Assembly (NCBI RefSeq): GCF_032854445.1
Contig: NC_088300.1
Coordinates: 68,794,984-68,858,983, forward strand
Direction of reading: 5' to 3'
DNA from: Liolophura sinensis
Lineage: Eukaryota; Mollusca; Polyplacophora; Chitonida; Chitonidae
Length of the DNA: 64,000 nucleotides
Below, piece by piece: positions 25,553 to 55,446 of the stretch. Under the pieces are notes generated by a model. The model saw nothing but the letters and a program-made list of their open reading frames with translations, was not told the origin of the DNA and did not search any database. The translations under genes were made by a program, and so were the position numbers. Numbering within the stretch: position 1 is the stretch's first letter; every line of letters starts with the position of its first letter.

Positions 25553-26230
25553 TTATACACGGTACTCAAGAAGAGTTGAGTAGCTCGTTTTGTCTTCGCC
25601 GAAGTTTGCGTTTACTGTAACCCGCGTGTTTTTCCCGTAGTACTTCGCCAAGTCTACTGTTGCCTCCCACAGCCCCTTCTGTCCACTCTCCTTCAGATGG
25701 GTCCACTCTTGGTCAGCCACTACAGCCACAGCCTTGGCGTGTGGGATAGATAGCCGGAAGCGAACGCTTGGTCCTTTAACGTCCTTGTGAAGCACCATCG
25801 GTTCGAAAATGTAGCAACCGTCCTTCCACTGGGCATACTGCTTAGGGAACGGATACGCCTTTTTGATGATTCGGGGACAATCTATGATATAGTTGTATAC
25901 TCCGATCAGCTGGTTTCCGGGGTCCTTGGCAGGAAGAGCGTATATCTGGAGTTTCCACCAGCCTTCGCTGGGAAGCGTTGCCATATAGGTCAGAACAGAA
26001 CCTTTGGACTGAGTGAAAACGTAATCTTTGCTCTCCTCCTCCGTTGAAGCCTTGATCAATGACGCTGTGGTTTTCACGGCATCTGAGTAGCCGATTTTGA
26101 CTTCCACCTCATTGCCTTGCAGTCGAATGACCGGATCGGAGTGGCTCATGACACTCAGACCATACTCCTTAAACTTGGGCTGTGCCCCCAGGTAACCATT
26201 GGGCAGATCTGGGACCGGTGCGTCGGCCAT
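25553..26230 (-). CDS. KY/hillarin C-terminal-like small protein, copy 1
   Basis: Single exon, 225 residues, from ATG at 26,230 (CCACAATGGCC) to a TAA; the start is chosen because copy 3 begins at the same alignment position. The N-terminus is LPNGYLGAQPKFKEYGL. Two beta-rich segments follow: residues about 17-120 (SHSDPVIRL, WWKLQIYALP, VYNYIIDC) and about 141-225 (EPMVLH, VAVVADQEWTHL, YSTLLEY), joined by YPFPKQYAQWKDGC. This pattern matches the repeated C-terminal Ig-like part of kyphoscoliosis-peptidase/hillarin proteins, cytoskeletal proteins of muscle and other cells. The transglutaminase-like catalytic domain is absent and there is no signal peptide or membrane segment. Function is unknown; a cytoplasmic binding role is inference. 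Confidence 0.8.
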   Translation of the reverse strand: MADAPVPDLPNGYLGAQPKFKEYGLSVMSHSDPVIRLQGNEVEVKIGYSDAVKTTASLIKASTEEESKDYVFTQSKGSVLTYMATLPSEGWWKLQIYALPAKDPGNQLIGVYNYIIDCPRIIKKAYPFPKQYAQWKDGCYIFEPMVLHKDVKGPSVRFRLSIPHAKAVAVVADQEWTHLKESGQKGLWEATVDLAKYYGKNTRVTVNANFGEDKTSYSTLLEYRV

Positions 26231-27206
26231 TGTGGAGACGGGTGAAGGGCTGAGTGACAAGACAAGGCGATCTGAGAGCAGACGCTAGAGTAAGGGCCGA
26301 GGATCCAGGCTCAAACTGACCCGCTAAACTCCCTGGCAGAATACCTCGGTAAAAAGGTTCGCCCTAAAGCGAGGAGCCAATGAAACAAAGGCAACAGCGC
26401 TTCAGCCCGCCTTCGCGCTCGTCGTTTTTGGTAAGTATTTTAGTGTGCTTCAGTTGCTGTGGTAACCCGACATCGGCATGTGGCACGAACTTAGCAGTTC
26501 CAAAAATACACTGCCTCCATTTCACGTTTATATTTACACTTTATCAACAGATTCTTAAACCCACGTCTTGTCAGAGCGGCGAATTTAAGGATCTGATGCT
26601 CTGATGGTGCGCTGTTGCACGTTTAACTGCTGGCCACAGGCTCTTAGACAAGGGATCGGGATAACATGCTGATGATGTCAGCCGTAGTTTAATTTCGGAA
26701 CTTAACTTCATCTGCAGGGGATCCAGAATCTTCACATCATCGTACATTTTCGTGAAAGTGACGGATGACATGTTGCATTATCAAACCGTTTTTAATTGAC
26801 CGAGCTGATTCAACGCGAAGGAATGATGTTTTTCAAGGAAGTTTTCGCAGCATGAAACAACAAAGCAAAGCTGTTTTCGCTCTACCATTGAATTGGCAAA
26901 TATAAATAGAAACGGAAAGGCTTTAGCTCCAAAGTCAGATACGGTACTTACTTGATATCCTTGATTTTCAGTTAGCAGTACAATGCTTTACGTTAAAATA
27001 AAAACTGAGTGAATCAATAGGACATTCCTAAAACCACACTACTCTCACTGTATCTATAAATTGCCATCGGATATGAACTGTTTTAAATAAATCCCCATCG
27101 AGTCTATAGGAGTCCAATCTAGAATTCGTAGGCATATGTCAACTTCGCCATTTCCGGCACAATCATGAACACTAATTTCCACACATTACGACTAATTCCC
27201 TCGCAT

Positions 27207-27302
27207 TATTTATTTATTTTATTTCATTGATGTTTCACGCCGTACTCAGGAATATTTCACTTATAGGATGGCGGTGGAAGGAAACCGGGGGGAGCCCGGA
27301 GG
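27207..27302 (-). mobile_element. SINE family A, 3' fragment
   Basis: TATTTATTTATTTTATTTCA tail, TGTTTCACGCCGTACTCAGG, then a shortened core (GGATGGCGGTGGAAGG) ending at GAGCCCGGAGGAAA. The head is missing. Confidence 0.8.
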
Positions 27303-30254
27303 AAATCCCTCGCATTACCACTAGTTCTCACATACTCTCACGGGTATAATACCAGTAACATCCACTAGAAAAGCAGACAGTCATCAACTTTCAGCAGTGT
27401 TTGGGAGAATTTGGAGATATTTCTGGCATGGAATTCCCAACTAATCTTACTGGATAGACCTATAACATGTTGGTGGTTCTATATTAGTCATAATGAAATG
27501 GTTAAACACTGCGATTATACCTGCCAAAAAAATGGCTTCCCGCAGTTCTGACAAACCATCTGGACACGGGGGCATTTGCCCAGCAGCGCATGGTGTTAAT
27601 GGTATGGGGTTTTTATTAATGGGTTAAGGCAAACCATACAACTGGGCATCTGGCGATGATAGTGCCGACTGCTGCATCGGTACATCTGTCGTAATTATAG
27701 CTCCAATAATATTGTCTCTGACAACACCCATGTCTAAATTTTACAATGGGGCTATAGAAAGGTGTCTGTTAAATAACTGGATCTGGGCATGAAGGTCAGG
27801 AACTCAGATACAAGACAGAGGTTCTCCAGGAGTGGGTACAGAATACAATAGTAATATGGGTTTTGTAAACCAAACACTGTACTGTCATATTACTCGCAGG
27901 AATCAAGCATAAACCAGTGAGTTTTAAGGCTGAACATATATACTCTGTATAAAGAGCAAAGAGATGTACTTGTACTCATCATTTAAATGTCATCTGAAAC
28001 TTGTATCACTACCCTTCCTTTTCATCCTCTTTTACGGCCTCTTAGGTGTCTAACGAACTCTTTGGATGTTTGGTTTTCACAGGGAAGACACGAGTTTGTC
28101 AGTGCAAATGAATTTCAGTCGGCGTATTCCCAAATTAGTCGAGAGGGTATCACTCTCAAGCTCGTTACTCTCTACCCACCGGTGAACTGCCATTGGAGCC
28201 ACCATCCTTTGCTCACGTGCTCAGCGTCTGTTTTTTTATCCGCCTTACTACCCCTGGCATGACTAGTGTTTGTCACAACCATTATATAATACATCAACGC
28301 AGCTTGCGATTTCGCAATACTATACATCTTATGCTGATGACATAGTCGCCAGGAATCTCAGCACTCGAGATGGGGAGACCGTTTGATGCACATAAGCTAA
28401 AACTGGCTTAGATGTAGACAGACATATCTCGTTTGCCAACTATAGTGTTGCATGGGCTAGAATGAGTTAATACCAAGCCTTCCCAAGAATCATTATTACC
28501 ACTGGTACTAATTTATCTTTCTGGTATACAGATCCGTCTTAATGTTACTCTACCACTATAGATATTGGTTAAAAAGTTAATGGATTAAAGTGCTTTGTTT
28601 TATCAACGACTTAGAATACCGATGAGTTCAAGGATTGCTTATCCATAGACAAAACAATGTTATGTAAGTTTTTGAAGAAAAAAAATAACATCAAACAGTC
28701 TAAATCAAAGAAAACGAATAAGCAAAATTGTGAAAAGCAGTCTGTCGCGTTATTTGGATGTGTACATGGCAATGTTATTCTTTTTTTTTTTTTTTTTTTT
28801 TAGAATTGATGCATCCCAATATTGTCGTTGACATGAGAGAGGTCTACAAGAGAGCGTTTATAAATGTATATTTGAGAAGATATTTTTGCTGCTCCGTTGA
28901 TGGTGGGTGATAACCTATATCTTTAAATTGTGATACTAAAAAACTCCATGAGTTCCGGATACCAAAGTTCGTCATGGTATATACTCTCAAAATATCGCAG
29001 ATTTCACAAAATCTCGAAATCAAAGGCGATATGAAACGAAAACAAGCTCTCTATATATTTCATGATTCACAGCGTGCAAACAAGGTCATTGAATCTCTGA
29101 GAAGATTTCATGTTACATTTAATTGAGATAAATGGCAGGTCTGTATCAAATTATGTGCTGCTCTTTTGATATACATGCGATAGTGGATCGTATCCTGCTT
29201 CTAAAAGCATCCAGTTGCGTCTTTCTCTGCGACTGAAAACGGGCAAACTGTGAAATGAACAAAAATGCTTGCTATGAACTGGAAAAAATGTGAGAAAAAT
29301 TGTCAGAAGGATCGCCAAGTATCTGCATGATGATATCATCTATAATGATATCGTCCATGGGCCAACGTGCTAAGGGGGTACTGATGTTTTTTCTTATTTG
29401 ATGGCGAATATATATCCTAAAGGTACTTAAGAAGTATCCAACAACAGTGACACTTTCGTTCCCATATCTGCTGGTTCTGTTTCACTTGAATGGAGATGAA
29501 AGTAAAATATTTGCGACCAGGGTACCTATTCAGAGCTTACATTATATAGGTTTAATTTGTTGGCGTATTTATCGTCTTAGGCTTCTAGAAGGTTCTCCAG
29601 TTATACATATAATATGTTTTTGTAAACATCTAGATCTTGTACATCTCTTAGACACCCCTGTGGGAATTTTGAATTGCAGTCTAACAATAAATTGATAAAA
29701 GGGTAAATCGTTGTTGTTAGATGTACCGTGTGAAAACAACACTGTTCGTGGTACAAACAATACATAAAATGTTTGGATGAATCATACGTTTTGTTTGTAA
29801 CCGAAGTCATACAGCTGTTATTTGTACTTGTTTGCGATGAAATCAGTGGAAACGTTTACTACAGATTGATTGATTGATTGGCAATGTCGGTGGCATCCCT
29901 AGGATGGCGACATTGCCAACAGTAGGCCTATCATTCTTCAGTGCTTGGAATTTTCACCAAAATAACCTCCAAGCCAATATCCTTCCAAACTAATTATGTA
30001 CCAGATGAGAGGTCCCAAAGAGCCAAGAAAGGATAATTATAGAGACAGTCCTGTATGATTTTTAAGCGGACGTGACTTTCTTCATCCCTTCTGAACCAAG
30101 AGGCTGCATGAATTCACTTTCCACCTCCCATAAGCTGCTTGCGATAATCTCGCTCAAAGATAAGCGGTATATTCACCAAAGCCAGAAACTTTTCGATGTT
30201 TATATAAAAGGCACAGTAGTACTCTATAGCTGTTAACTGCTGGACGTTGTCGGT
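27303..30254. other. intergenic, hairpin and poly-T only
   Basis: No gene recognised. Holds a T21 run at 28,781-28,801 and a near-perfect hairpin at 29,880-29,917 (arms GGCAATGTCG and CGACATTGCC). Confidence 0.5.
29880..29917. repeat. 38-bp hairpin
   Basis: Arms GGCAATGTCG (29,880-29,889) and CGACATTGCC (29,908-29,917) are perfect reverse complements; the inner part (GGCATCC CTA GGATGG) extends the pairing with slight mismatch. A GATT repeat precedes it. Confidence 0.75.
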
Positions 30255-30306
30255 TTAGTGACATATTCTGACGGCGTAAAACACAAATTAAACAAATAAA
30301 TAAATC
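30255..30306 (+). mobile_element. SINE family A tail remnant
   Basis: ACGGCGTAAAACACAAATTA followed by AACAAATAAATAAAT, a short 3' end. Confidence 0.6.
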
Positions 30307-30544
30307 AAAGGTTGCCAAATAAAGACGCGCAGTGCATCTCTGGATATTTGCAATAACTTTGTCACTGATCTCGTCCGTGTTGTGTTGACAATCCGCACTG
30401 GACTCGTACAATACCTCTCTGTGATGTACAAAGCACTTCACAATAACCTAATATATACCTGTAAGGCATCTAAACATTAGGTGGTATTATACAATATACC
30501 TGTCTACCTCACAATCAGTAAGAGGCTAAAAGAGTTGGTACAAC

Positions 30545-32520
30545 AATATTCACTGGTGTTGTACAGTAAAAAAAAAAGGCTGACAATCAATGACTGACTG
30601 GTATTATTCGCAGGTATTATATAGTGCCTGTCTTGCTTATTATCAACGATCGACTAAAAAGGCCGGTATGGCCTCCAAACATTTACTGACATTGTACGGT
30701 ACCTGTCAGTCTGACAATCAATGATTGTCTATATATAAAACGCCGGTGCAATCCAAACATCCACTGGCGTCTAATTATTCACGGACATCATACAGTACCT
30801 GTCTTGCTGTCGACCATTGACTGACTAAAAAGCCGCGTTAAGACATCCATACATTCACTGATATTGTGCAGTGCCTGTCACACTGACAATCAATGGTTGA
30901 CTAAGAAGCCGCGTTAAGACATCCATACATTCACTGATATTGTACAGTGCCTGTCAAGCTGACAATCGATGGCTGACTAAGAAGCCGTGTTAAGACATTC
31001 GTTGGTATTATATAGTACCTGTCTTGCTGATTATCAATGATGGACTAAAAAGGTTGGCGTGGCCTTCAAACATTTAATGACATTGTACAGTAACTGTCAA
31101 TCTGACAACCAATGATTGACTATATATAAAAGGCGGGTACGGCATCCAAGCACACCACTGGTGTTGTACAGTGCCTGTCTAGCTGTCAATCACTGGCTGA
31201 CTAAAAATGCCGGTACGACATCCAAATATTCACTGCATGGTTTTCTATAGTGCCTGTCCAGCTGGCAATCGATGAATGACGAGAAAAGACGGTACGGCAT
31301 CCAAACATTTATCGCATGGTTTTATACAGTACCTTTCAGGCAATCAATGACTGGCTACGGCATCCAAACATTCGCTTGCATTGTACAGCAGGCCATCAAT
31401 GGTTGACTAAAAAGCCGGTACAGCGTCTAATTATTCACGGACATCATACAGTACCTGTATTGCTGACGACCATTGATTGATTAAAAAGCCGCGTTAAGAC
31501 ATCCATACATTCACTGATATTGTGCAGTGCCAGTCACACTGACAATCGATGGTTGACTAAGAAGCCGCGTTAAGACATCCATACATTCACTGATATTGTA
31601 CAGTGCCTGTCAAGCTGACAATCGATGGCTGACTAAGAAGCCGTGTTAAGACATTCGTTGGTATTATATAGTACCTGTCTTGCTGATTATCAATGATGGA
31701 CTAAAAAGGTTGGCGTGGCCTTCAAACATTTAATGACATTGTACAGTAACTGTCAATCTGACAACCAATGATTGACTATATATAAAAGGCGGGTACGGCA
31801 TCCAAGCACACCACTGGTGTTGTACAGTGCCTGTCTAGCTGTCAATCACTGGCTGACTAAAAATGCCGGTACGACATCCAAATATTCACTGCATGGTTTT
31901 CTATAGTGCCTGTCCAGCTGGCAATCGATGAATGACGAGAAAAGACGGTACGGCATCCAAACATTTATCGCATGGTTTTATACAGTACCTTTCAGGCAAT
32001 CAATGACTGGCTACGGCATCCAAACATTCGCTTGCATTGTACAGCAGGCCATCAATGGTTGACTAAAAAGCCGGTACAGCGTCTAATTATTCACGGACAT
32101 CATACAGTACCTGTATTGCTGACGACCATTGATTGATTAAAAAGCCGCGTTAAGACATCCATACATTCACTGATATTGTGCAGTGCCAGTCACACTGACA
32201 ATCGATGGTTGACTAAGAAGCCGCGTTAAGACATCCATACATTCACTGATATTGTACAGTGCCTGTCAAGCTGACAATCAATGGATGTCTAAGAAGCCGC
32301 GTTAAGACATCCAAACATTCACTGATATTGTACAGGGCCTGTCAAGCTGACAATCAATGGCTGACTAAGAAGCCGCGTTAAGACATCCAAACATTCACTG
32401 ATATTGTACAGTGCCTGTCAGGCTGACAATCAATGGCTGTCTAAGGAGCCGCGTTAAGACAGCCATACATTTACCGGTGTCATATAATGCATGCTTAGCT
32501 GAGGGTCGGTGGCTGACAAT
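30545..32520. repeat. satellite array, ~76-bp monomers, 656-bp higher-order repeat
   Basis: Monomers of about 76 bp share TGACAATCAATGGCTGACTA, AAGCCGCGTTAAGACATCCA and CACTGATATTGTACAGTGCC. Groups of about eight unlike monomers repeat as a block: GTCTAATTATTCACGGACAT occurs at 30,769, 31,425 and 32,081, and other markers shift by the same 656 bp. The right end (about 32,200-32,450) is a run of the most similar monomers. No coding frame is supported. Confidence 0.93.
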
Positions 32521-33344
32521 GTACATTTGTTCTAGACTTGTAGCCTTTGAATTAGTATGGTCGAAGGCCGTATTTGAACCTGCACCTCGTGTGGTCTAGA
32601 CTAGGTTGAAAGACCAATGCCCTTAACTTTTATATCACGGCCCACTTCCACTTTTGAATTGTTTTTGAGGGTGTTTTATTCTCAACTGATTAATATCATT
32701 ACCTTGAGAAAACAAGTCTTCAGAATGTTTGTGCTAAAGACCTATTCACAAAATAACAATACAACTGCATTAACAAAGATTTCTGGAAATCTTACACTGG
32801 GTTGTAAATAAATTGAAGTAGATAACATGTCAATTATCTGGACTTTACACTGAGATTATCTCGGATTATTTTGTAAACACACGAATACATGACACAAAAA
32901 ACATTCGGTTGGAAAAAAAAAAATTTAGACGGTGAAAATTAATACAAAGGCAACAGCTGTCTTAGGTTTGCCAGAAAAAAAGAAGACAATACTGTATTGG
33001 TTTGATTAAATAGTGTTGCATAATGCTGTACATTAGGTATTTAGATACATTATGACGCATATATCTGTTACGAGTAATTTGGAAAAACAAATATGCGAGG
33101 TTTATAATAACTTTATATACGCCAGAAATGACACTCAGTAATTTTGGCTTACAATAAAATTACTATTATACCCAGGAGACTAACTAAATAGATTCTTGAG
33201 GAGAATGTCGGGTTATAAATCTTGCAGACCGTAAGTGACTATTGCCTTATATAAAACATCACCCTAAAACCACTTTCTTGCTTTTTTGCAGAATTTCTTT
33301 AACAAATAAAGAAACTGAATAGTAAGACTCATCCTAGTTGTTGC
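32521..33344. other. intergenic, nothing assigned
   Basis: AT-rich; no gene, SINE or tandem repeat seen. Confidence 0.5.
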
Positions 33345-33550
33345 ATGTCAGCGCAGCACAATAACCCAGGATCTTCTCACCAGTGCGGCCGGATGTGAGT
33401 TCAAGTCCAGCTCGTACTGGCTTCCTCTCCGGTACAAGAGAAAGTCTGCCAGCAACCTGTGGATTGTCATTCGTTTCCACAAAAATAATGGCCGGGGTCG
33501 AATTAGGGAAATTTTCTGGAGCCCGACTTAAAACTCCAATCAAATCAGTA
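33345..33550 (+). mobile_element. SINE family A, diverged
   Basis: Head AGCGCAGCACAATAACCCAG, B-box GAGTTCAAGTCC, then CTGGCTTCCTCTCCGG and a degraded 3' part (AATAATGGCCGGGGTCGAAT, AAAACTCCAATCAAATCA). Confidence 0.8.
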
Positions 33551-34784
33551 ATACATGAATTTGGAGCGATGGGTTAAGTGGTGATATCTACTAATTCTTA
33601 AAGGATACATGGGAAAGAACTAAATATCTAAGGTGATCTAAGTTTAAAAAAATTGTTTATTTTTGAGGAATATTTTATATCTTTAAATAAGCGGTCCATT
33701 TTATGCTTATTTTTCGTCAATGATCGGAAATTTTCATAAATGACATCATCGATGAACATACTGCGTTACAGGCTTAGCCCTTCGGACGCGTCCTTCCACA
33801 TAGTTGTCGTCACAGCTGCAGACTACTTCATTTTTTCTTTTTTTCTTTTTTTCCTAACCTGGCCATTAGGGCCTTAGGAAAACTATACCCTTAAATCCAT
33901 TTTTATGCCCCATTAGGAAAACTCAGAAGTTTTTTGTACATCCTAATATATATTATGACACATCCTAAACTGCATATTAAGAAAAGAAAAGAAAATGTTT
34001 CATGTGCCCTGCACTTTGGGCTCGTCCTCGGTGCATGGTCTGAATTGATATTTTAAACGATGTGGATGGACACATGAGCAGTGCAGTAGTGAACTGTTAA
34101 GTGGCGATACGTGACACGTGTTATGTTTTAGCAGGCTGAATAAATAATAATAGTCCGAAAATATGACGGTTTTTGTATTTCTCATGGGGTTCGTGTAGCA
34201 ATCAATAATATCCATTTGTGTGCAGTGTTTTCCTCTGTGGGCTATACACGTTGTTTTATATTTGGTAATCATTAATTATGTTTTTCTGTTCGTATGGTGG
34301 ATAGTAGAATTCAAACAATACATTATAAATCTGAAAAGAATGATGCCCCGTTAAGTGAAGTCTATAGAGGTGTGAAAACTTTTATGTGTTAGCTTCCGAG
34401 TGCTGCGTTAGTCAGTTTGACCTACTCTTACCACTGTATAATCGGCACAGTCTGTTTTTAGTCACACCTGTCGGGCAGCATTGTTTCTGGATATCGATCA
34501 GCTTCCCTAAAATCAATACCGGTACATTTTCATAGGAGACCTTGCCGAGCCATAGGACGTCCGTCCACTATACATAGACATGTTTCCCTCTCGACATCAA
34601 TCAATGGCGTGAAATGACGTTAAAAATGGACGCACTCTTTTATGCTATTTTTAAATATGGTTGAAACCCCAATCGATGAAGAAGTCAAATAAGTTTTATC
34701 TTCAGTGCCAGCAAATACAACCGTTTTAATATACAACGCGATTTTAAGTGTGTATTTTAATGTATTTTCTTAAAGTATCCCCGG

Positions 34785-34885
34785 TTTCCCGGACCAGCAA
34801 TAATGCAGGCCCTGTTGTGTAAGTGAAATGTTCTTGAGTATGGCATTAAACATCAATAAATCAAATAAATAAATAAATAAATGAA
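34785..34885 (+). mobile_element. SINE family A, 3' fragment
   Basis: GCAATAATGCAGGCCCTGTT, GTGAAATGTTCTTGAGTATG, then AAATAAATAAATAAATAAAT. Confidence 0.75.
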
Positions 34886-37125: not shown

Positions 37126-37827
37126 TTATATGGTATATTCTAACACTGTTGCATATGATGGGCAGTTTTCTTGAAACCTCACATTAACGGATACCTTCTC
37201 ACCGTAACCGAAGTATCGTTTGTGAAGAAACACTTTACCGGACCACTCATTGCTTTGTGACGACATTCTCTCAAGTTCTGTCCATTCTTGATCAATCACC
37301 ACAGACACCCCCGAGGCGTTAGGAATGGTCAAGCTGAAACTGACCTCAGTGCCTGCTTTATCCGGGCCGATGTCCGTAGGAGAGCGTAAGGCAAAACCTT
37401 CCCGCCATTCTTTAGATTGTCTGGGGTAGGGCTTGGCTTTTTTGCTGATTCTCGCACACAGTAATAGGTAATTGTAAACGTTTTCCAGGCCTGATCCGCC
37501 GGCTTCGTCATGCACGGGTTGAGCGAAAATCATGAACTTCCACGATCCTTTCCTGGGTAAAGTGATGTTGAATTTCACAACTTGTTCGTCTTCGTCAATT
37601 TCCTTGTAAACGTACTTCGACCCATCTCTGCCCGTATCAGCATTCTGCAATTCGAAATCCATTAGCGTCGGATAGGTGTATCCTATTCGTATTGTCACTT
37701 GATTCCCATTGAAAAGACGGATAATTGAGTTCGTATGGCTAAATATGTCTAGTTTGAAAGTTTTAAACTTGGCCTGGGGTCCGAGAAACCCCAGTGGTAG
37801 CTTTGGCATAGGGGGAATCGTTGGCAT
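37126..37827 (-). CDS. KY/hillarin C-terminal-like small protein, copy 2
   Basis: Single exon, 233 residues, ATG to TAA. It shares the family layout: LPLGFLGPQAKFKTFKL near the N-terminus, FSHTNSIIRL, GSWKFMIFAQP, VYNYLLLCARI, hinge YPRQSKEWREGF, then a second segment with VSVVIDQEWTEL and SYATVLEY at the C-terminus. The hinge lacks the WKDGC cysteine of copy 1 and the middle is longer (HDEAGGSGLEN). It is the most distinct of the minus-strand copies by eye. No catalytic domain, signal peptide or membrane segment. A TATA-like run lies about 100 bp upstream. Function unknown. Confidence 0.8.
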   Translation of the reverse strand: MPTIPPMPKLPLGFLGPQAKFKTFKLDIFSHTNSIIRLFNGNQVTIRIGYTYPTLMDFELQNADTGRDGSKYVYKEIDEDEQVVKFNITLPRKGSWKFMIFAQPVHDEAGGSGLENVYNYLLLCARISKKAKPYPRQSKEWREGFALRSPTDIGPDKAGTEVSFSLTIPNASGVSVVIDQEWTELERMSSQSNEWSGKVFLHKRYFGYGEKVSVNVRFQENCPSYATVLEYTI

Positions 37828-37922
37828 TTTGCGCTGATTGTTATCCTGAAGTTATCAGAGTGGACGGGCTTCTCAGTAAAAGTAACTGTTTTACGTCGTC
37901 TGTATAACTCTCCTAGTTCGTA

Positions 37923-37937: not shown

Positions 37938-37939
37938 GC

Positions 37940-42675: not shown

Positions 42676-43361
42676 TCAAATGGTGTATTCAAGAAGAGTG
42701 CTGTATGAGCCTCCCTCTGGACCGTACAGAGCGTTTAGCGTCACAGAGGCGTTCTTTCCGTAATGATTACGCAGTACCACATTCCCGGACCATTCGTCGT
42801 CGATCTTCATTAAATGAGTCCACTGCTGTTCAACAACAACAGCCACTTTGTTAGCGTCGGGAATCGTCACACGAAAGCGGACGGTCGGCCCGCTGACGTC
42901 ACCATGTAACACCATCGGCTCCTTCAAGATGCAGCCGTCTTTCCAGTCCTTGAACTGGGTGGGGCGTGGGTAGGCGCGCTTGGTGACTTTCACACAGTGG
43001 ATCAAGTAGTTGTAGACTCCTGCCAGGCTCTTGCTAGGGTCGGACTGAGGAAGTGCGAAGATCTGGAACTTCCAGAATCCCTTGGCGGGAATGGTGATAT
43101 GATAGCTAATGGTGTTGTCCTCCAAGTTCGTCTGTGCAAACACACACTCGGACCGATCTTCCTTGGTGTTCGCTTCGATAAGAGAAAAAGTCGTCTTTAC
43201 TGGATCGCTGTAACAAATTTGGATCCTTAATTCATTACCTTCCCATTCTTTCATGTGAATCTTAGCGTCCGTGTGGCTGAGGACGCCCAATCCAAAAGTC
43301 TTGAACTTGATTGCGGACCCAAAAAACCATTGGGCAAGGACGGCTCCGCGACTGACGCCAT
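42676..43361 (-). pseudogene. KY/hillarin C-terminal-like small protein, copy 3, one frameshift
   Basis: The start homologous to copy 1 is ATG at 43,361, reading MASVAEPSLPNGFLGPQ. Just after GPQ the frame breaks: one base is missing before the conserved KFK (near 43,308-43,312). From KFKTFGLGVLSHTD onward the frame is open to TAA with all family landmarks: GFWKFQIFALP, VYNYLIHC, FKDWKDGC, EPMVLH, VAVVVEQQWTHL, SYSTLLEY. The 686-bp span plus one base equals 229 codons. Because the rest is intact, this is a very recent lesion or an assembly error. The open frame that starts further upstream has an unrelated N-terminus and is probably not the protein made. A TATA element lies about 90 bp upstream. 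Confidence 0.75.
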
Positions 43362-43450
43362 AGTAAAGGTTTACCAACTTGTTCCAGTTATAGAACTACA
43401 TCCACGAGACCTTTTCTCAGAGTAGAAAATATTCTGTTTGTGACAGTACC

Positions 43451-43456
43451 TTTATA
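43451..43456 (-). promoter_or_regulatory. TATA box upstream of KY-like copy 3
   Basis: GGGTATAAAGG on the minus strand, 90-95 bp upstream of the ATG at 43,361; a good match to a TATA box with a short leader. Confidence 0.45.
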
Positions 43457-43979
43457 CCCAGCAAGGCACATATTTAATAATACAAACTGGGGCGAGGTTA
43501 TGTTGAATGAGCTAAAAAAAAATATATTTATATGGAATTTAAGATCGAGTTTGGTGGTCACTCTAGGCAATGAAAGGGACTTGTAACGCATTTCCAGGTC
43601 AGATCCCAATTTGTAAGACCTGAAATCGACACCCTAGGTAACGATGAATTATGTGTGACATGTAGAGCTACGCCTTCCCGGGCCGTGGAATGTCTGGTCG
43701 TTACAGGACACCGCATGTAGACCCATGAACTTTAACACTGGTATAATCTTCAAACAAGCGATGTTGTTATAAATTGCTTTATTAATCTTTAGTAAATAAA
43801 CTCTCAGTTATGTGACCTACGACCCATTACTCCTGGGTAATATTATATGCATATAGATGGGGTAGTGTTATGAGTCGATCTCTTCAGATTCATACCACAC
43901 ACTTGACACGCCCGACACTTGATGTCTTTCAAGTGACTGGTCATGAGAGATAGGTGTGGAGAGTGTGTGTGTGTGGGTT

Positions 43980-43995
43980 GGGGGGGGGGGGGGGG
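43980..43995. repeat. poly-G tract after GT repeat
   Basis: A GTGTGTGTGTG stretch leads into 16 consecutive G and then AGGGGTGGAGGGG. Runs of this type could form a G-quadruplex on the plus strand. Confidence 0.85.
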
Positions 43996-43996
43996 A

Positions 43997-46900
43997 GGGG
44001 TGGAGGGGTCAGTGGGGAAGTTAAAGTGTCATGTACACACACACCAAAAACACAATCACTCACTCTCTAGCACCACTGTCAGCATTTAACCTCTCCCCTG
44101 CATAACTTGAATACATTTGTTGTAATAGCCCCACACTGCTGATCCTCATTCTGACCCTAGCTGTTAACGAATCCACAAAGATTTATTTTTTACTATTTAC
44201 TAATTGTATGTTGAAAACAACAAGCATGTTTTCAAATATGCTATTGCTTTGATGTTTTGACGTACACAAGTGCAGTTTTTGACATCGTACACTGTTTTAG
44301 AGATTGTCATTAAAAAAGCTTGACTCATGCTTACATGCTCTGTACTTATAATGACTAACAGGTTTACTCACCGGCACTCGAAAACACATTATAAAAAACT
44401 ATAAATTTTTATCGTAACAAAATTGACACGCATTTATTAGATGCAAGCGATCGTCTTCACTGACTCATACCAAATTGTATTTTAATATAGAAGAAAACTT
44501 TAAAAACGACAAAGAACTGAAAAGAGCACATTTTTTTCTATCTGGTGGTGCCTGCTGCATAATTTTGTGATTTTTCCTCGCCATGCACGTAAAGCCTGAA
44601 AACGATAAAGCTGGAATAATTCTTATGCTGAGGGTGTGTTAACTCGGAACCTACGACCAACATTCCGGTTTCTCCATCGTCAAGCGGAAAACGAACTGTA
44701 CTGTTCGCTACATCCTGGGAAGAAGCGTTCTAGCGGAAATGTGCGAACTGCATTTCGGCGATTTCCGACGGCAATTCTCCTCCTAACACAGAAGACTTCG
44801 GGACTAGTTCTTAGGCAAAATGGAGTCGCCCACAGCGGATTTTGGCGCTGACTTTATTTATAATTTGTCAACTTGAGGTACATATTAGAATTTTTATGGC
44901 ATGCACCTGCGAGGAAATGCATACTCTTTTCAATGGTATTTGTTTGATATATAAATTTTCTTCTCCTTTAACAGAGTCAAAACACAAAAATACTGACATT
45001 CGTGTGTAAACAAAGAAAAAAACCTCGGCGAGAAAATGTGTGCGGCTTAAACGCCAGAACTATGTTCTAATCGAAAGCGTTTCGTGGGACCTCATGATCA
45101 CCAATCAGATTTTGTAGGTTTATATCTGACAATGAATGCAACAACTAAATAAAACAACACGAGCATTTTTCATGTTGCTTTCGGCATTTTTCTCTAATGG
45201 TGTAGCAATGAAATCACGTTACAAAATAATGTACTTATACATGTGCACGTTGTAAGGTGCACTATTTTATTATTATTTGCTCGAACTCTTGGCCTTTTAA
45301 CAATGTTATTTGCACACATAATAATGACTGGAATTCGTAAACATGTATTATTTGTCAACGTAACAGCTTGGGTGCAGGGGGGATACATGTATACATGGAC
45401 AAAATAACAGAGAATGTCAAAAATGTCAAGAATCCCATATAGTTGTGTCTCGCAACAGAAACTGCTAGATTATATGATCAGTGTCGACGTGAGAATGAAG
45501 AATGGTATTATATACTGAAGTTTTCCTGCCATTGAACATGCATTAGTTAATATTCTTGACCTGACTATCTGACACTTAAGCTATGTGTGAAAGGTCGTAA
45601 CTTTGTTGAGAAATATATTGCCTGTCACAGTTCAAACACGGCAAGTAGCAGCAATAAAATCCGTTTTATACTTGATCGTTCGAGTACTTACGTATGAGTC
45701 AGTTATACTCCATTTATTTTCTAAATTCTAGAATCTCGGAATAAGGAACTTCTAATAGCTATTCACACGCCGAGTTTATTTATGCAAATAAATGTTTTTA
45801 ATTATTTTCTCCCCATGAAATTTCCTGTGAAATATCGTTAAAGTGTTTGATAACTTTACTAGTCTTTGTGCTACGAATCTGCACAAATCTGTTCCATAAA
45901 AAACTCACCTTTTGTCCTGCACAACTTGCAAGGAGTATCAGGGGCGTAGGAAGCAATTTTAAAGTGGGGTGGCCAAGAGTCCCCCCCTTTTTTTTTTCTT
46001 TATAACCGTTATATCTCTGAACCAATTCAAAGGACACTCTTGATGATTTCATGAGGGAATCTATCAAGTTTTGGGGGCTTTTCCTTCCAACAACTTTATC
46101 AGCTTAGTTTCGATGACTATCAGCATTTTTTTTTCACCTCTGTAACTTTGACATTATTAAAAGGAAACTTATAGACTATACGTGTGCCCTTTAAGCTTTC
46201 AACTCTATACTTATTAATTTGCGTAACTTTAGCAACAGTTACACCCACATGTATGGACATTTTTAAAACACATATGCTATTTAAAGCATCTAAGAGTGAT
46301 ACGCAGAACTCAGGAGTGCTTCAGTTCCACTGCTACTTTCAGTGTTTTGTATCGTTCAGTCACCTTTAGAATGAAACCTTCAGGAGAGCTGACTGAATGC
46401 TTGAATTAAGATTTGTGGTTCTTTTGTCAATATTCAGCTCTTGGTTCATGTCAGAAAGTTTATTATGCGGTATTAAATTTCCTCACGAGTGAACAGGATA
46501 TTTTGCCTTGCGCCATTTTCATTACGCTGTGTAGTACATGTATGAGACGTTACGCTTCAGTGATTCACATGATTATGTTATTGGCGTTCAATGCCGAGAT
46601 ACTTTTTTACTGATTTGACTGGGCAGATTAATGCAGCGTCCATGCAGAGTAAACCATATACTTGACAGACCTCCAGACCATACAACGGTCGGATAGGCGA
46701 AACTTGGATTCGAACTCACGACCTTATTGTTTTAGAAGACACTAATTTTTTATGAGCGACGTGATATTGAAAGTGGTTGTAAAACCTGGGTATTCCTCTA
46801 GATGAGGAATGAATGAATAATGTATGAAAAGGATGAGAAAATGCAAGAATAAATGAATGAATCAATCAGTCAAACTCCAGTCAACCAATCAACCAATAAA

Positions 46901-48918
46901 TCAATCAATCAATCAATCAGTCATCATCATTTAATCTATCGGTCGAGCCTATAGGCTAGTACGTCCAGTACGCTTGAGGACTACTGAAATAAAGATAAAT
47001 AGTCTGTGTACTGAGACCTAAACGGTATGTGTAAATCATTCCGTTCTGAGTTGTCACAAGCTGTTGTTCGCTCACCCATGGCGTGTTTATTCGCGGGTGA
47101 GTTCGGAATCAAAAGTTTGACCATGCATTTCAGGGTCGTGATTTTGAATTTTTGAAACCATGTGAAAAAACTCGATTTCGCCCGCACTTACTTCATGCAC
47201 ACTCGTAATTTTGTATACGTAGCGGTATCATATTGTAACTATTGTCATGTTCGCACAATATTCACGGTCGATCCGGTAACAGTTGCGAGAAGTGCAGCGT
47301 TGTATCGGGCTGCATACCTGTTACATAAAGGAAACCGGTGGGATACATATGCTGTCGTTACGCACAGATGTGATGAATATTGTGATATAACACGAACGAC
47401 AGCATACAATGAAATTCACGCGCACAGTTGTATAATAAACAGTATATCATCTGTATTATGTATAGAAGGTCATTTTATTTATGTACGCCTTGTGGTCATC
47501 GAGTTCTCCGCATACAAATGTCATCGCACCCTTGCGCATGCTCCCAGAGGAAGCAACTAACATATATGAATATGTATACCGCTTTATCGGATGTATCATC
47601 CTAATTATTTCGCATTATAAGTGAACGAAAATTGCAATGAAATGAGGGGACATATTAAAATTAGTTAATTACTTGGTATTCAAATTTAACATGTGTTCCG
47701 TTAAGTCTTTTTTTCCATTACAGGTGCAATGAGATGCTATGGCAATATATTTTACACAATCTTTAAATCTCGTCTGCTTTACTTGTGGCAAGTTATAAAA
47801 AATCCTGATGTGCCGCTGACAGGTGAATCATCCATGAAAAAGTTCTCCCCGGGGACAGCCAGACCTAACAAGAGAGGTTACCAGCTTTTTTTAGACAGGT
47901 CCTCTCCTATCCGGTTTTTAAATTGTTTCCTCCATTCTCTAACAAGTCCGTCGTCGCAAAGCGGAAGTTTGTGAGCCCCTGACATGATTTTCTTTTCAAT
48001 ACTGAGCAATGAATCAGTGTAACTCATACACCTGTTTGCCAAGAATTTGAACCAATAAAAATGAGGCTAACCCTAACAGATGGCGTAACCTTCGGGAGAC
48101 CTCGTACACCAGACATAGTTCTACCCATATACATTACACTGAACATAATCTGAATTCACAAGTGTATTGAAATTTAAGCCGGATTTAAACCATGAAAGCA
48201 GTCTATCCTTATACAAAACTATTGGAACTTACGGTCAGACTAAGGATATATCGACTTGATTGTTAAATGTAGCTACACTTTTAAACAATCAGCTAAATTT
48301 CACTTGATGAACTTCGGACTTACGCTGCAAAAGACTTCACGTCGGTTCGAGTCTACGCAAGAATCTGCTGTTACGCGATTGAGGTAGAGAAAAATGTTAA
48401 AACTGCGACACTGGCCTCTGGACAAATCAATCACCTTTCAAGACTGGTTGCGCTTGTGCAAGAAAAACATTGTAAATATGGCCAATTTTTAAACTACATC
48501 ATAACAAGAATCAATGATCAGACAACGATTTATAATTGTTATGAGCATGAATATTTTTCACTCAGTCAATTTAGAAACAGAAATACTGGCTGGATGCCTT
48601 ATAATATAACATTGCTGAAAACTGGCTGGATGCCTTATAATATAACATTGTTGAAATCTACAGAGCGGGTGGAAGTAAAAATCATGTATATCATATATTT
48701 ACCTCGCAGATAGTGCTATCAAACATATCTACCGAGGTGTCCAAAATGTGCAGTGTTTCATATTTTACAGTATTTCAAACATCATCCCCGATCTGGCCTG
48801 GTATACATATATACATATACGAATGTCAAATATTGCCAGATAAAACACATTCCTTTCCCACTGAATAACGCCAGTCCACAGAAAACCGCCTCCCAGGTCC
48901 GCATCACCTGTCGATCTT
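43997..48918. other. intergenic, unassigned sequence
   Basis: No recognised gene. Holds a CpG-rich patch at 44,640-44,855, a probable dispersed repeat around 45,930-46,080 (GGGGCGTAGGAAGCAATTTT), an AATC-rich stretch at 46,855-46,925, a plus-strand frame of 132 residues at 47,162-47,560 with no recognisable family, and a 33-bp direct duplication at 48,588-48,655 (GGCTGGATGCCTTATAATAT). Confidence 0.45.
44640..44855. other. CpG-rich patch, unassigned
   Basis: About 18 CpG dinucleotides in ~215 bp, far above the flanks. It ends near CAAAATGGAGTCGCCC. It might be a promoter or first exon, but no open frame continues and no gene is identified. Confidence 0.35.
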
Positions 48919-49610
48919 TTATATGGTATACTGCAGTAAGGTAGTGTAGGAAGATCCCTTATCGTCACCGAACCTGGCGTTGACAGTGACAGGGACGTTA
49001 CGTCCGTAATAATCCACCAGTTTAACGTTCCCTTCCCAGATGCCCTGTTTTCAGTTCATCCTTCAGATGGTTCCACGGCTGTTCGTTGTTGACACATACC
49101 GCGACGTCATTGGCTTTTGGCACCATTAACCTTGAAGTGAACGCTTCCGCCGCGGACGTCCTTGTGCAGGATGAGGGGATCGTACAGGTAGCAACCATCG
49201 CTCCATTGCTTGTAGCGTTTCGGATATGGGTAAGGCTTGGCGATGACTTTGGGACAATGGAGCAGATAGGTGAAGACGCCAAGGAGTTTCTCACCTTCTT
49301 CTGATGTTGGCAAAGCGTACAGTTCTAATTTCCAGAAGCCTTTTTCCGGTATGGTCACGACGAACTGAATTACCTGCTTGGATTCATCGTTCTGTATAAA
49401 AACAGTGTCTTCAGCCTCCTTGTCTTTGTCTACGGACTTCAGTGTGGCCAAGGTTCTCACGGGTTTTCGATAGCCAATCTCGATTTGAGCCTCGTTTCCC
49501 AATCAATCGAACCTGAGAGTTCTTGTGACTCTTGAGACTCAAGCCGAACTCCTTTAAACTTGGGATGTTTCTCCAAGATTGGTAATGCTCGGGAAATCAT
49601 CAAAAGACAT
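48919..49610 (-). pseudogene. KY/hillarin C-terminal-like small protein, copy 4, five frameshifts
   Basis: ATG at 49,610 (MSFDDFPSITNLGE) and terminal SSYTTLLQYTI before TAA at 48,919 frame a 692-bp copy. All family blocks are present but spread over three frames: KFK, EFGLSLKSHKNSQVRL, GNEAQIEIGY through HKDVRGGSVHF, LMVPKANDVAVCVNN with WNHLKDELK, and GIWEGNVKLVDYYGRN. Frame changes fall near 49,563, 49,555, 49,499, 49,126 and 49,045, each consistent with one extra base in a short A or G run (minus strand). Removing five bases gives exactly 229 codons, the size of copy 3. No other disabling change was seen. It is either a young pseudogene or an error-rich patch of assembly. Confidence 0.75.
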
Positions 49611-49828
49611 GATGGCAGTCTATAGACCGAACAATACTCTTAAATATACGTGCAGCCGAGATATGCTTGTGTAAGAATGGCGGCAGTGTACGATCGCACC
49701 TTGTTCACCCGTACAGCGACAGTCCCTAAACTGCCAGCCCTGGATATGAGTCAGCCGAAGAATGTCACCTCGAGTGTATTCAGGTATCCGCCCCGACAAC
49801 TGTTTCCTGACTGGCAATGACGCCGACC

Positions 49829-49834
49829 TATATA
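49829..49834 (-). promoter_or_regulatory. TATA box candidate upstream of KY-like copy 4
   Basis: GGGACTATATAGG on the minus strand in a GC-richer setting, about 220 bp upstream of the ATG at 49,610. A second candidate (GTATATTTAAG, about 49,638-49,648) is much closer to the ATG. Confidence 0.35.
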
Positions 49835-49839
49835 GTCCC

Positions 49840-51930
49840 GCGCCGACACAAAACCCACTCACGTTCTTATCAGTTCAAATAAAACACCATCGTTTTTCTA
49901 TACCAGTACTCTCATAATACACACAACGCACAACTAATTTAGGACGTGTTCGTTCAGGGAATTCTTAACTAGTGCATTTAACCCCGTGGAATTTCTTATA
50001 GAGGAAATATAAGAGAGATGACGTTTCCCGTAGATCACGATGACGCCGGCCATTTATTAGCTCCATATACTCCGGCATTTCTTCAGCACACGTCAAGCGA
50101 AGTTGATGTATAACAGGTTATGACCCCGTTTAGCACACTCGTATAAAAAGGAATAGAACGGCGACAATATGCGTGAAAGGCAAGCTCATTCAGGTGTAAA
50201 CTAATACAGACGTAGGCAGAAAAATGGGAGTTCGCCTTGTACATGAGTGATCTGACAGATAAAGGTGAATAAACTCATGTTAAACGGAGAGTTTGCAAGT
50301 CCTTGATGACAGTTCAAGTGATAAATCCTGTACAGCTTTAGTAATTTATGGGGCAGCATACAGTTACGTTCTCTGACACACATGGAGTATAAAACTCATT
50401 TACACGTGTAAGTAAAGTAGGAAGATGACAAGTGACCATAACTGCTAGCGTGCAAATAATTATCTTTTTTCGTTCAAGGGCCAGCATGTATTAACAGTTT
50501 GTATCATACAGCAAAGGCATTAATTTAAAGACAACAGTAAGTTTTTTTAATAATCCCAAAATCTAATTGAAACTACAGCATTTTAATGAACAGAATGGGA
50601 GTAGTTCAAACTATGAGAAAACTTCAGGCAGAGATTCAGCTTATTGTCTTGATGACATAAGATTATCTGTTTAAGCACCTGAGAAAATTTCCATTAACTT
50701 CAGTTTAACTGTGCCGCTTTAGTTTAATCATGACTGGCCTAAGGCAATAAATTAAGTGAATATGTACAGATTTCTATAGTATCCATAACTGATATAAAAA
50801 TGAACGAAAGCTACATTAATCTGTAAACAATTACCCCTTTATTCTGTGTTCAGAGGATTATTCCTGACACGATTTAGACATTGGATTGTAGACAATTACA
50901 CCTATCCGCGGGAAGTAAGTGTCAATAATCGATGCAGCAAGTCACCGCAACAAACAATTAAAACTTGAGTAAACCTTATTCAACACTTTTTGCTGTAGAG
51001 TTTATTTATACAATTGTCAACTAACTGAAAGCACCTTGTAGATTAGACGTGTAAGTATAAACATGCACAAATAAACAAAATGCATGCAGTTCACGCGGTC
51101 TTTGTTCAAAGGGAGACAATCTCAGGTGTGGGATTATGTGCCGTGGAAGACAATAAAGGAACAGTACCTACATTTTATTAATGTCGTGTTTCAATGGTCC
51201 AACAGATTTCTTTATCGAACGAGCGAAATAAATTATGTCTAATCATGCCATTTACGATAAATATCTTGTGCATTACATTTTCAGCAAACGACATTTATGA
51301 CGGCCAGATCAGCAGCACACCAATTCGTGCACATTCTCAACTTACGCAGCCCGGTCATAATACTTCTTGATCTGGATCTGCTCTGCTCTCAATTTGGAGA
51401 TAAATGCTACTTGTCCATCCTTAAACAAGTGTGATCAGAATTATTGTATGGGGGTGGGGTGGTAGTCACAGGTATTACTGTGGAACTGAGAAGATTTTTC
51501 GGTGGATACCTTGTAAGTTATAGTGCCAAGTCAGCCTGCCCTATAGTGTTCGCTAATTTGTCATTTGTCACAGAATTTCTCACCGAATACAAATAAAAGC
51601 TGCTATAGAAACTAAATAGGCTGGTTCAGAAATAACCAACAACTTATTACCTGCATGGATTTTAATGACGTTGGGGAAAAAAGACATTGCAAATACATTG
51701 CAAACTTATTCTGTATATTTACGTGAACTGTGTTGAACATGCCCAAGTTGCCCAAGCGGCTTAGAATCCGATGACTAAGACTATGTTTCTCTATTGTATC
51801 AGAGTCATCTGTCATGAATAATGCCTTTACCTTATAATGTGAGGCACTATACATCGTGCCTGCAATTGAGTGGATTAGTATTCAAGGCATTACTCGTTAT
51901 ACATGTATGCCATTCAACAGCTTAATTATA
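49840..51930. other. intergenic, nothing assigned
   Basis: AT-rich region between the divergent copies 4 and 5; no gene or repeat recognised. Confidence 0.5.
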
Positions 51931-52690
51931 AGGATGGAGGAAACCGGAGTGTATTGCAGACAGTTGGACAAGGGGTAATGTAACACATTCCGGATGGAGG
52001 AAACCGGAGTGTATTGCAGACAGTTGGACAAGGGGTAATGTAACACATTAAATGTTGTGGAGTAGTAAATATGGATGGAAGAAACCGGATTGTAGTGCCG
52101 ACAGTTAGACAAGAGGCAATGTTGTAACACAGTAAATTTTGTGGAGTAGTAAATTATGGATGGAGGAAACTGGTGAGTGAGTGAGTGCTTGGGGTTTAAC
52201 GTCGTACTCAACAATTTTTCAGTCATATGACGACGAAGGAATCATTAGGGTGCATGTACGTGTAATGTGCCTCCTTGATGCAGGACGGATTTCCACCGCT
52301 CTTTTATTTAGTGCTGCTTCACTGAGACGACTTACCGAAGGCAAGTAAGCCGCCCCGCCCGAGCCATTATACTGATACGGGTCAACCAGTCGTTGCACTA
52401 TCCCCTTCATGCTGACGCCAAGCGAGGAAGTTACAACTTCCTCTTTTAAAGTCTTAGGTGTGACTCGATCAAGGATTGATCCTGGATCTACCGGATCCGA
52501 AGCAGACGCTCTACCAACTGTGCTATCCGGGCCGGTGGAGGAAACTGGAGTGTAGTGCTGACAGTTAGACGAGAGGCAATGTTCTAACACAGTAAATTTC
52601 GTGGAGTAGTAAATATGGATGGGGTAAACCGGAGTGTAGTGCTGACAGTAAGACAAGGGTAATGTTGTAACATTATTTTTGTGGAATACC
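51931..52690. repeat. tandem repeat of GGATGGAGGAAACCGGAGTG units, split by a SINE
   Basis: Two identical 60-bp units start at 51,932 and 51,992, then longer units (~80 bp) carrying the extra GTGGAGTAGTAAATATGG. The array continues after the SINE at 52,536 with two more units. The same GGAAACCGGAGTG motif belongs to the dispersed repeat seen in the whirlin-like introns. Confidence 0.85.
52174..52535 (-). mobile_element. SINE family B, full length, 13-bp target-site duplication
   Basis: Tail GAGTGAGTGCTTGGGG at the left, body, and complete tRNA-like head at the right (minus-strand start GGCCCGGATAGCACAGTTGG, A-box like). Flanked by TGGAGGAAACTGG at 52,161-52,173 and 52,536-52,548. It sits inside the tandem repeat and is the best reference copy of family B in the window. 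Confidence 0.95.
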
Positions 52691-53035
52691 ACTCTTAACT
52701 AAATAATTACCATGCAAAATTTGTATTTTCAGTATTTTATTTCTTAGGCATATGTATGACAAGATAAGTGTTGAAAAATCCATATGATTTGGTGCGCTTA
52801 TCCATTTGTAACAGTTGAGATTACGTGGAGATCCATCTCCATATGGACTAAATATGTTGTATATGAATATGTCATGAATGAGTGTTTTATGTATCGTGTG
52901 TACGTTATCATGATCAATAACTTAAATGACCAATCTGTATCTGTCTAAACTTCTAAATCAAGGTCCACTTCACGACACGGTTCCCCCACACTACATACAT
53001 GTGTATACAAATAAGGATACGGTAGCGGTAGGCGG

Positions 53036-53250
53036 CTTCTGTGGCCTGGTGGTTAGCGTGCTAGCGCAGCATAATAACTGAGCAGCCTCTCAACAATGTG
53101 ATCGCTGTGAGTGCAAGTTCAGTTCTTGCTGGCTCCTCTCTGGCCATACGTGGGAAGATCTGCCAGTTGACTGCCGTGGTGTATAGGTGAAATATAATCT
53201 TGAGTACGGCGTAAAACACCAGTCAAATAATAACGTAAGTAAATAAATAC
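53036..53250 (+). mobile_element. SINE family A, full head, shortened body
   Basis: Head GTGGCCTGGTGGTTAGCGTG, B-box-like GAGTGCAAGTTC, TCTTGCTGGCTCCTCTCTGG, then a deletion in the middle and the end ATCTTGAGTACGGCGTAAAA with AAGTAAATAAAT tail. Confidence 0.88.
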
Positions 53251-53573
53251 GGTAGCGGCTGCAAACAGTTACTAAAAGGGCAAAATGACTTCGTCGAGTC
53301 GTGAACACTGTACACAGTATATACGTCATGTGGACCTACATGTTCTTTGTCATCATGATCGAAGAATATTACACTTACAGCTTTTCAAAGGAGAACATGT
53401 GGTTATTTAAGTATAACGACTCAAGCGAAATTCGAGGCTGTACGACGTGTGCGTGTCAAAACTGTTTTCAAATATTAATTAGTAGTTTCCTGGTTAAACT
53501 GTGTACAGAGCGACATGGGTATGGAATGAATATTTAAACAGGTGGCTAGTAAACGGAGCTTTCAACAATACAC

Positions 53574-53574
<1 letters not shown>

Positions 53575-53650
<76 letters not shown>
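53575..53650. repeat. (TA)n microsatellite
   Basis: About 37 uninterrupted TA units. Plus-strand Ile-Tyr frames across it are artefacts. Confidence 0.97.
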
Positions 53651-53651
<1 letters not shown>

Positions 53652-54501
53652 CCATGTCTTTAAGTGTGTATGTTGCCGTGTTTATGTTCCCAGACGTTAT
53701 GCTCCTCTCCTAATCTGTCAAAGTTTGATACGTTTAAGCTCTCTTTGCACATTCTGACAAAAAATCTGTCCTATTTACAGATGTTTATTATATTTCTCTA
53801 ATTATGTGTAAAAATGAAGAGGAATTCTACGTGTTTTGCATTTAGAAATAGAAGTTTTAGGTAGAACTTACTACACTTTAAGGCGCAGTAATATTTTAAG
53901 CCTAGTGGTCTCTTCACACTTGAGTGAGTTTATACAACTGAAATAATCTCTATTACAGGCACTAGGCCGTCTTAAGCCTTAGGGTATAGAAGAGCAATGA
54001 TCACGGGAAAGCCCTGGATGCGTTTGACTATGAAGAAATCCGTTTAAATGTCACACTAACTCTTCAGAGAAAACCAGATATCCCTGGGCTTTAGTGAAGT
54101 TCAGGTATTTTGTGTGGTTTTGTCGTGTAAACAGAGTGAACTGCAGCTAAAGGTCAGGGTACAATGGGTAGGACGACTTGTGAGGATCCATTTGGGTGGT
54201 ACTCCGAGGATTAAGGTATATACCCAGGGCTACAGAAACCAGCCGCTATTCTTGCACTCTGCAGCCGTGTGCACGTTCTTATAGCTTATATAAACAGGGA
54301 AGGATATATATGCTACGGTGCACCTAGTTCCTTTATACACAATATCTCTCTCACTCTCTCGTTCGTGCACGAACAAGCAACACGTGTATGCGCGTTTGGT
54401 ATCAGCTACTGCTACTAGAGAGATAAAACTTTCCAGCTGGATACGACGCCTGTATACTAAGCAGCTTCCGGAGCTAATGCGTTGGTTGTAATCCACCAGG
54501 A

Positions 54502-54510
54502 TATATATAG
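54502..54510 (+). promoter_or_regulatory. TATA box candidate upstream of KY-like copy 5
   Basis: TATATATAG followed by GC-rich sequence, about 245 bp upstream of the ATG at 54,754. The distance is similar to that of copy 4 on the other side. It implies a leader of about 215 nt, or an unseen leader intron. Confidence 0.35.
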
Positions 54511-54753
54511 CCTGCCTGCCCCTCCGCAGGAGTGTTTGGGATACCCTGCTGGCCCGGCTGCAGTGAAGCTGAATCATAGGGATTACCTGTCGTGTTTTCT
54601 AGATCATTCTGTCCTGACAAGTCTCTAGACATCTCAAACAGCGTACAGCAGCCTGCAGTGATAAAGGACGAACTGGGATTCTGGAATCCCTGTCATTGAC
54701 AACTATCAAACCAATACCGCCAAGAACACTTCGGAAACTTTTGATTCTCAAAC

Positions 54754-55446
54754 ATGGCGGGATCAAATCTGATGCTGCCGAAAATGGCGGATGGATTCCT
54801 TGGACCTCAGGCAAAGTTTGAGGCGTACGGATTGAGGACGATGAGCCACCCAGAGCCTGTTATAGTGTTGCCTGGAAATGAGGTGGAGGTGAAAATGGAA
54901 CGCACCCAGCCCATGAAAATGATGGCAAAGCTGGTTCCGTACGGGATTCCTAAAGAATGCGTGAACCACGTGCTGATGAGTGTGGACGAGTCGGGAACGA
55001 TCGTCAGCTTTAAGGTAACTATCCCTGGCACTGGCTGGTTCAAGCTCAACATCTTCGCCCTACCACCTTCCGAAGCAGGTCCTAAACTACTGGGTGTTTA
55101 CAACTACCTCATCAATGTCGAGAACATCTCCATCGAAGGTTACCCTTTCCCCAAGCAGCATGCGCAATGGAGGGACGACGGATGTTACGTGTGGGAACCA
55201 TTGATATTACACGCCGGATTCCGTGTTCCGGGGGTGCACTTTAAATACCGACTTCCGAACGCTGCCAAAGCGGCTATTCGTATCGGAAATACCAATGACT
55301 GGATTATGTTAGAACCAGGCAGTGAACGAGATGTGTGGGAAGGTAGCGGAGATCTCAACGGAAACTATGCCAAAGACACCAAAGTTAAATTGAACGTTAA
55401 TTACGGCGGAGCGAACTGGAACACACTGCTGGAATACACAATCTAG
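54754..55446 (+). CDS. KY/hillarin C-terminal-like small protein, copy 5
   Basis: Single exon, 230 residues, from ATG (AACATGGCGGG) to TAG; the only plus-strand copy, divergent from copy 4. A second Met (residue 11, MADGFLGPQAKF) could also start translation. Landmarks: MSHPEPVIVLPGNEVEVKM, GWFKLNIFALP, VYNYLI, YPFPKQHAQWRDDGC, EPLILH, NWNTLLEYTI. It differs from the others: the cysteine after VYNYLI is replaced (NVENI), one Asp is inserted in the WKDGC block, and the QEWTHL block reads NDWIMLE. It is thus the most diverged copy and may have a separate role. No catalytic domain, signal peptide or membrane segment. Function unknown. Confidence 0.8.
   Translation: MAGSNLMLPKMADGFLGPQAKFEAYGLRTMSHPEPVIVLPGNEVEVKMERTQPMKMMAKLVPYGIPKECVNHVLMSVDESGTIVSFKVTIPGTGWFKLNIFALPPSEAGPKLLGVYNYLINVENISIEGYPFPKQHAQWRDDGCYVWEPLILHAGFRVPGVHFKYRLPNAAKAAIRIGNTNDWIMLEPGSERDVWEGSGDLNGNYAKDTKVKLNVNYGGANWNTLLEYTI

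Follow-up and report, generated by a model that had tools for sequence, protein, structure and literature searches.

A cluster of probably stand-alone KY/hillarin tail units in the chiton Liolophura sinensis

The five units and their surroundings

The window is a stretch of 64,000 nucleotides (C6:68794984-68858983) in an assembly first published as Liolophura japonica (HiFi, 14X; PMC11068029), the species having been renamed L. sinensis in a published correction (PMC12441733). The genome searched comprised 609,464,459 bases in 632 contigs. Five related units lie in the window at the coordinates claimed in the initial annotation. Four of them are on the minus strand and the fifth is on the plus strand, and the gaps between them are approximately 4.8–10.9 kb by coordinates. 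In window positions, the units and the two domains of the first unit are:

c1, 25553..26230, minus strand: intact unit of 225 aa, ATG at 26230; nearest to the tail of the parent-type gene L001 (58% identity)
c1 first domain, 25844..26194, minus strand: Ig-like_KY (PF23265), residues 23–139 of the TTG-started ORF, E 4.4e-21
c1 second domain, 25553..25864, minus strand: C-terminal beta-sandwich in the predicted structure; weakly similar to CBM_48/GlgB_N, with scores under the Pfam cut-offs
c2, 37126..37827, minus strand: intact unit of 233 aa
c3, 42676..43361, minus strand: ATG at 43361; frame offset past codon 17, followed by 210 open codons to the stop
c4, 48919..49610, minus strand: ATG at 49610; repeated frame switches; stop codon in the homologous position
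c5, 54754..55446, plus strand: intact unit of 230 aa, on the opposite strand to the other four

Of the description as five copies of about 228 residues, the number of units held, but only c1, c2 and c5 are intact from the ATG (225–233 residues). Pairwise identities among the five units were 34–53%, c3 and c4 being compared over their open parts only. The listed ORFs of c1, c3 and c4 start at TTG. The start of c3 reads MASVAEPSLPNGFLGPQ, after which the homologous frame is another one. In c4, tblastn with c1 found four pieces separated by three frame switches, and by eye a fourth switch separates the ATG piece from the first of these; the tblastn pieces and the ATG piece together occupy three frames. 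Unit c4 is probably a pseudogene. The frame-switch points of c3 and c4 lie outside long homopolymers when inspected by eye, and since the assembly was also built from HiFi data, the lesions seem likelier to be real than to be errors. With c3 and c4 disrupted, the cluster thus appears to be partly decaying.

No DNA repeats of 60 bases or longer linking the units were found within window positions 24–57 kb. Tandem repeats of 76–79 bases, arranged in a 656-base higher-order repeat, are present between c1 and c2 (window 30767-32606) and are unrelated to the units. Elsewhere in the window, the minus-strand frame 9549-10040 matches the N-terminal domain of harmonin (USH1C_N, E 8.6e-9); a gene of whirlin/harmonin type probably has its first coding exon here. 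A weak Phage_integrase match on the plus strand at 62266-62583 (E 0.00059, below the cut-off) is perhaps part of a tyrosine-recombinase mobile element. When 10 further frames from the window and from the loci L004 and L013 were searched against Pfam, the harmonin N-terminal domain was the only match over the cut-off beside the units, apart from transposase families in L004, and none of these matches has a bearing on the cluster.

Two contigs of the assembly are mitochondrial in content. In C99, at least seven COX1 matches, including a partial one, follow each other at intervals of about 15.5 kb, and C632 is a mitochondrial contig of 15,209 bases. The gene order of C632, with the genes identified by eye from the frames and tRNAs, fits what we take to be the ancestral mollusc mitochondrial order. 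The assembly thus retains a concatemer of mitochondrial DNA.

Domains, predicted fold and the transglutaminase part

The Pfam profile search found Ig-like_KY (PF23265) in all five units with scores of 49.9–75.8 bits (E 4.7e-13 to 4.4e-21), all above the curated 27-bit cut-off; c4 was scored on its longest open piece. The proposed KY/hillarin membership was in this way confirmed for the first half of the unit in 5/5 cases, but the second half had no Pfam match over the cut-off. AlphaFold, run with 12 sequences, produced a model of two beta-sandwiches with a mean pLDDT of 91.9 and a pTM of 0.86, and because this two-domain model is confident, the unit is predicted to fold alone. The best 50 of 1833 Foldseek matches against the PDB were generic two-Ig-domain matches (TM-scores by query 0.21–0.31) and included antibodies, titin, pilus chaperones and filamin C; these best 50 therefore indicate the fold class only and no specific homologue.

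A search of c5 against PDB sequences gave one match, a nanobody (E 0.76), which was rejected. Among prokaryote contigs searched with c1, 26 stretches fit a short pattern, and by tblastn none of the 26 encodes a relative.

Also the claim that the catalytic part is absent stood, within the sensitivity of the searches, as no transglutaminase (TG)-like exon was found in or near the window. Transglut_core (PF01841) matched none of the five units in the Pfam profile search. A query consisting of the TG end and the first Ig-like_KY domain gave 33 matches, none of them at C6:68.7–68.9 Mb. When 11 pieces of KY loci, taken from the TG side or from further upstream, were compared with the window by tblastn, nothing was returned apart from the Ig-like parts of the units already described and matches at E >0.1.

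The parent-type gene and the origin and age of the cluster

Ig-like_KY was found in the genome in at least 55 matches at E ≤0.01, at least 53 of them over the cut-off, and grouping by hand according to place gave at least 30 loci, five of these in the window; the locus tallies are lower bounds because the search scores the best candidates only. For at least 23 of the at least 25 loci outside the window, the L001 query gave a match that covers its TG end (start at query position ≤12). At C8:20862 (L007) the TG end was read in its frame, and C10:14750 was the sole one of the 25 listed outside loci not showing a TG end. At C10:15731268-15780187, five KY frames that contain TG and are each 451 codons long form an array with one interrupted copy; it is a tandem expansion of the KY family separate from the cluster in the window.

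The search of the genome with c1 gave 24 matches at E ≤0.01. The best one outside the window was at C6:71315603-71316265 in the locus L001, with 58% identity over c1 residues 4–225 and E 6.5e-85, situated on the same contig as the units, 2.5 Mb away. The next match outside the window, C10:15860760, had 26% identity, and all others outside were at or below 30%. A single open frame of 580 codons in L001 encodes the final part of a TG-like domain as well as three Ig-like_KY domains and the same C-terminal domain as in the units. Its preceding exon ends at a GTAAGT donor, and the predicted junction yields Transglut_core with 30.9 bits (cut-off 23, E 3.4e-7). The units are the counterpart of the last two L001 domains, i.e. 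the third Ig-like_KY domain and the C-terminal domain.

The L001 exon expected to hold the TG cysteine reads GKTTYAMVFDTMC, with no cysteine at the expected place when aligned by eye, and L010, another fuller KY-type gene, reads GEIGYAQLF at this place, likewise by eye. The last exon of L001 includes HSWN and LVD, which we take to be its His and Asp motifs. The missing cysteine suggests that the parent-type gene L001 may itself be a non-enzyme. The places concerned are, by eye alignment:

L001 2996-3241, minus strand: expected TG active-site place without cysteine
L010 2414-2833, minus strand: expected TG active-site place without cysteine

An AlphaFold model of the L001 last exon (580 residues, 10 sequences) reached a pLDDT of 75.1 and a pTM of 0.57, making its domain arrangement unreliable; strands were discerned by eye in four successive regions.

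A tree was constructed of 12 tails, including the five units, the L001 tail and six other KY tails from the same genome. A branch with a support of 99/99 set the five units, together with the L001 tail, apart from the six other tails. This grouping, together with L001 being the best match, relates the cluster to an L001-type tail. The five units alone formed a group with a support of 56/83, and a pairing of c1 with the L001 tail was not rejected (p-AU 0.103). A single origin of the five units is weakly supported by these sequences.

Divergence was estimated for the 15 pairs formed by the five units and the L001 tail, with c4 represented by its longest open piece and c3 by its open part. The dN values ranged from 0.37 to 0.71. 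In 11 of the 15 pairs the synonymous differences were too many to be corrected, and the other four gave dS values of 1.91–2.99. The synonymous sites are thus near saturation, and the duplications therefore old. Neutral decay was simulated by placing random substitutions on the L001 tail, in 2000 runs for each number of substitutions; indels were left out, which makes the simulation conservative. At 150 substitutions, corresponding to a mean amino-acid identity of 61%, the open frame was kept in 0.6% of the 2000 runs, and at 250 or more substitutions (identity 45% or lower) in none of them. Units c1, c2 and c5 keep an open frame at identities of 58, 36 and 40% to the L001 tail, respectively, and these intact units are therefore not neutral relics. 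As judged from the coding sequence, c1, c2 and c5 appear to be old duplicates under purifying selection.

Three other explanations of the cluster were weighed. That it consists of decaying, functionless pseudogenes would agree with the disruption of two of the five units (c3 and c4), but the other three are open over 225–233 codons despite the near-saturated synonymous sites, an outcome that the neutral simulation does not yield, and this explanation is very unlikely. The units could also be the last coding exons of longer multi-exon genes with unrecognised 5' exons. From the upstream in-frame stop to the conserved block, c1 and c2 include three AGs each, two of them 5' of the ATG and those of c1 in a pyrimidine-rich context, so that these two units may have upstream coding exons, and an upstream exon with a GTAAGT donor is present in at least one full KY-type gene of the genome. 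However, the corresponding 48 nt of c5 are free of AG, so that no canonical acceptor can join an upstream coding exon to c5, and the open frames of c1, c2 and c5 start just 54, 24 and 9 nt upstream of the ATG. The AG-free stretch of c5, together with the failure to find any TG-like piece in or near the window within the sensitivity of the searches, argues for free-standing frames, and the last-exon explanation is unlikely.

The initial annotation took the lack of introns as a sign of retrocopying. The founder of the cluster would then have been a 5'-truncated retrocopy of a parent mRNA, followed by local duplication, and the intronless copies anchored at the 3' end do resemble truncated retrocopies. 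The inference from introns falls away, however, because the parent-type tail itself lies in one L001 exon; the copied part having no intron there, an intronless copy follows from the copying of a part of an exon just as well, and the absence of introns carries no signal. The copies and the parent-type gene are, furthermore, on one contig. A run of about ten A's is found about 160 nt past the stop of c3, but in the 400 nt downstream of the other units the A-runs reach only about seven (by eye). This absence is weak evidence, because age would erase most hallmarks of a retrocopy. There is no positive evidence of retrocopying beyond what the copying of a part of an exon also explains, and we consider a retrocopied founder quite improbable.

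The cluster is likely to be an old family of free-standing KY/hillarin tails, formed by the copying of a part of an exon, multiplied locally and in some members decayed. The 3' part of the last exon of a parent-type gene would have been copied to the site of the cluster, local copying, once with inversion, would have followed, and one or two of the copies would have decayed since.

Possible function and comparison with known systems

KY is a Z-disc protein in a proposed filamin C network according to yeast two-hybrid, biochemical and co-localisation work, and the residues proposed to be catalytic in KY are conserved across vertebrates, direct enzymatic activity having not been found as far as that account goes (PMC6078408). 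For leech hillarin, a location at the axon hillock and a link to septins are described (PMC3081291). These partner-binding papers concern whole KY/hillarin proteins. By analogy, each free protein of the cluster might be a two-domain adaptor, structural or competing, for the cytoskeletal partners of the full KY/hillarin type, a tentative reading in which the free tails would bind filamin- or septin-type partners either as adaptors or as competitors of the full protein. In the chiton Cryptochiton stelleri, a hillarin and filamin-A-like proteins are given under the proteins specific to the mineralised cusps of the radula; the same source groups that hillarin with proteins predicted to be mitochondrial, which counts against the cytoskeletal reading (PMC6351634). 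It would be a long shot, again by analogy, to suppose that a private set of free KY tails in chitons tunes the full KY/hillarin proteins as competitors or load-bearing adaptors, perhaps in high-load tissues such as the radula.

The stress-related role suggested at first gained nothing from the upstream regions: two heat-shock-element-like sites were present in the five 1-kb upstream stretches against about 1.9 expected, the background being 0.37 per random kb of the window. TATAWAW was found in the last 350 nt before three of the five ATGs and in 33% of random 350-nt stretches, and no promoter signal is claimed.

If natural tail-only proteins are under selection, this would suggest that the binding done by the tail domains is a function able to stand alone. 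Owing to its high predicted confidence, the unit also offers a ready two-domain construct for binding and structure work. No title on stand-alone KY tails was present among the literature listed, and novelty is not claimed on this basis; the main texts of PMC7850002 (the A. granulata genome) and PMC11068029 include none of the words kyphoscoliosis, hillarin and transglutaminase.

The second domain bears a weak profile likeness to the CBM48/GlgB N-terminal and isoamylase N-terminal domains, c1 giving E 0.0024 for CBM_48 and E 0.0036 for GlgB_N. However, the CBM_48 score of c1 was 18.6 bits against a cut-off of 22.4 bits, GlgB_N was likewise under its cut-off, and a CBM_48 match at E ≤1 was obtained from one of the 11 members searched. 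The axonemal protein FAP246 (PDB 7n6g, 7sqc) was a weak profile match to the second domain of the units (E 0.0039, chain residues 849–934), and the search of PDB sequences with the tail profile A1 gave FAP246 at E 0.016 together with three weaker matches; FAP246 was, however, absent among the best 50 of 1833 Foldseek matches, and the relation is unproven. With the KY/hillarin family, the units share the Ig-like_KY domain, the C-terminal domain, the domain order and the sequence blocks, but they differ from the full KY/hillarin proteins in corresponding to the last two domains only, without the TG-like part or further Ig-like_KY domains. What the cluster would add to this already known family is a set of tail-only KY/hillarin genes that appear to be both old and selected.
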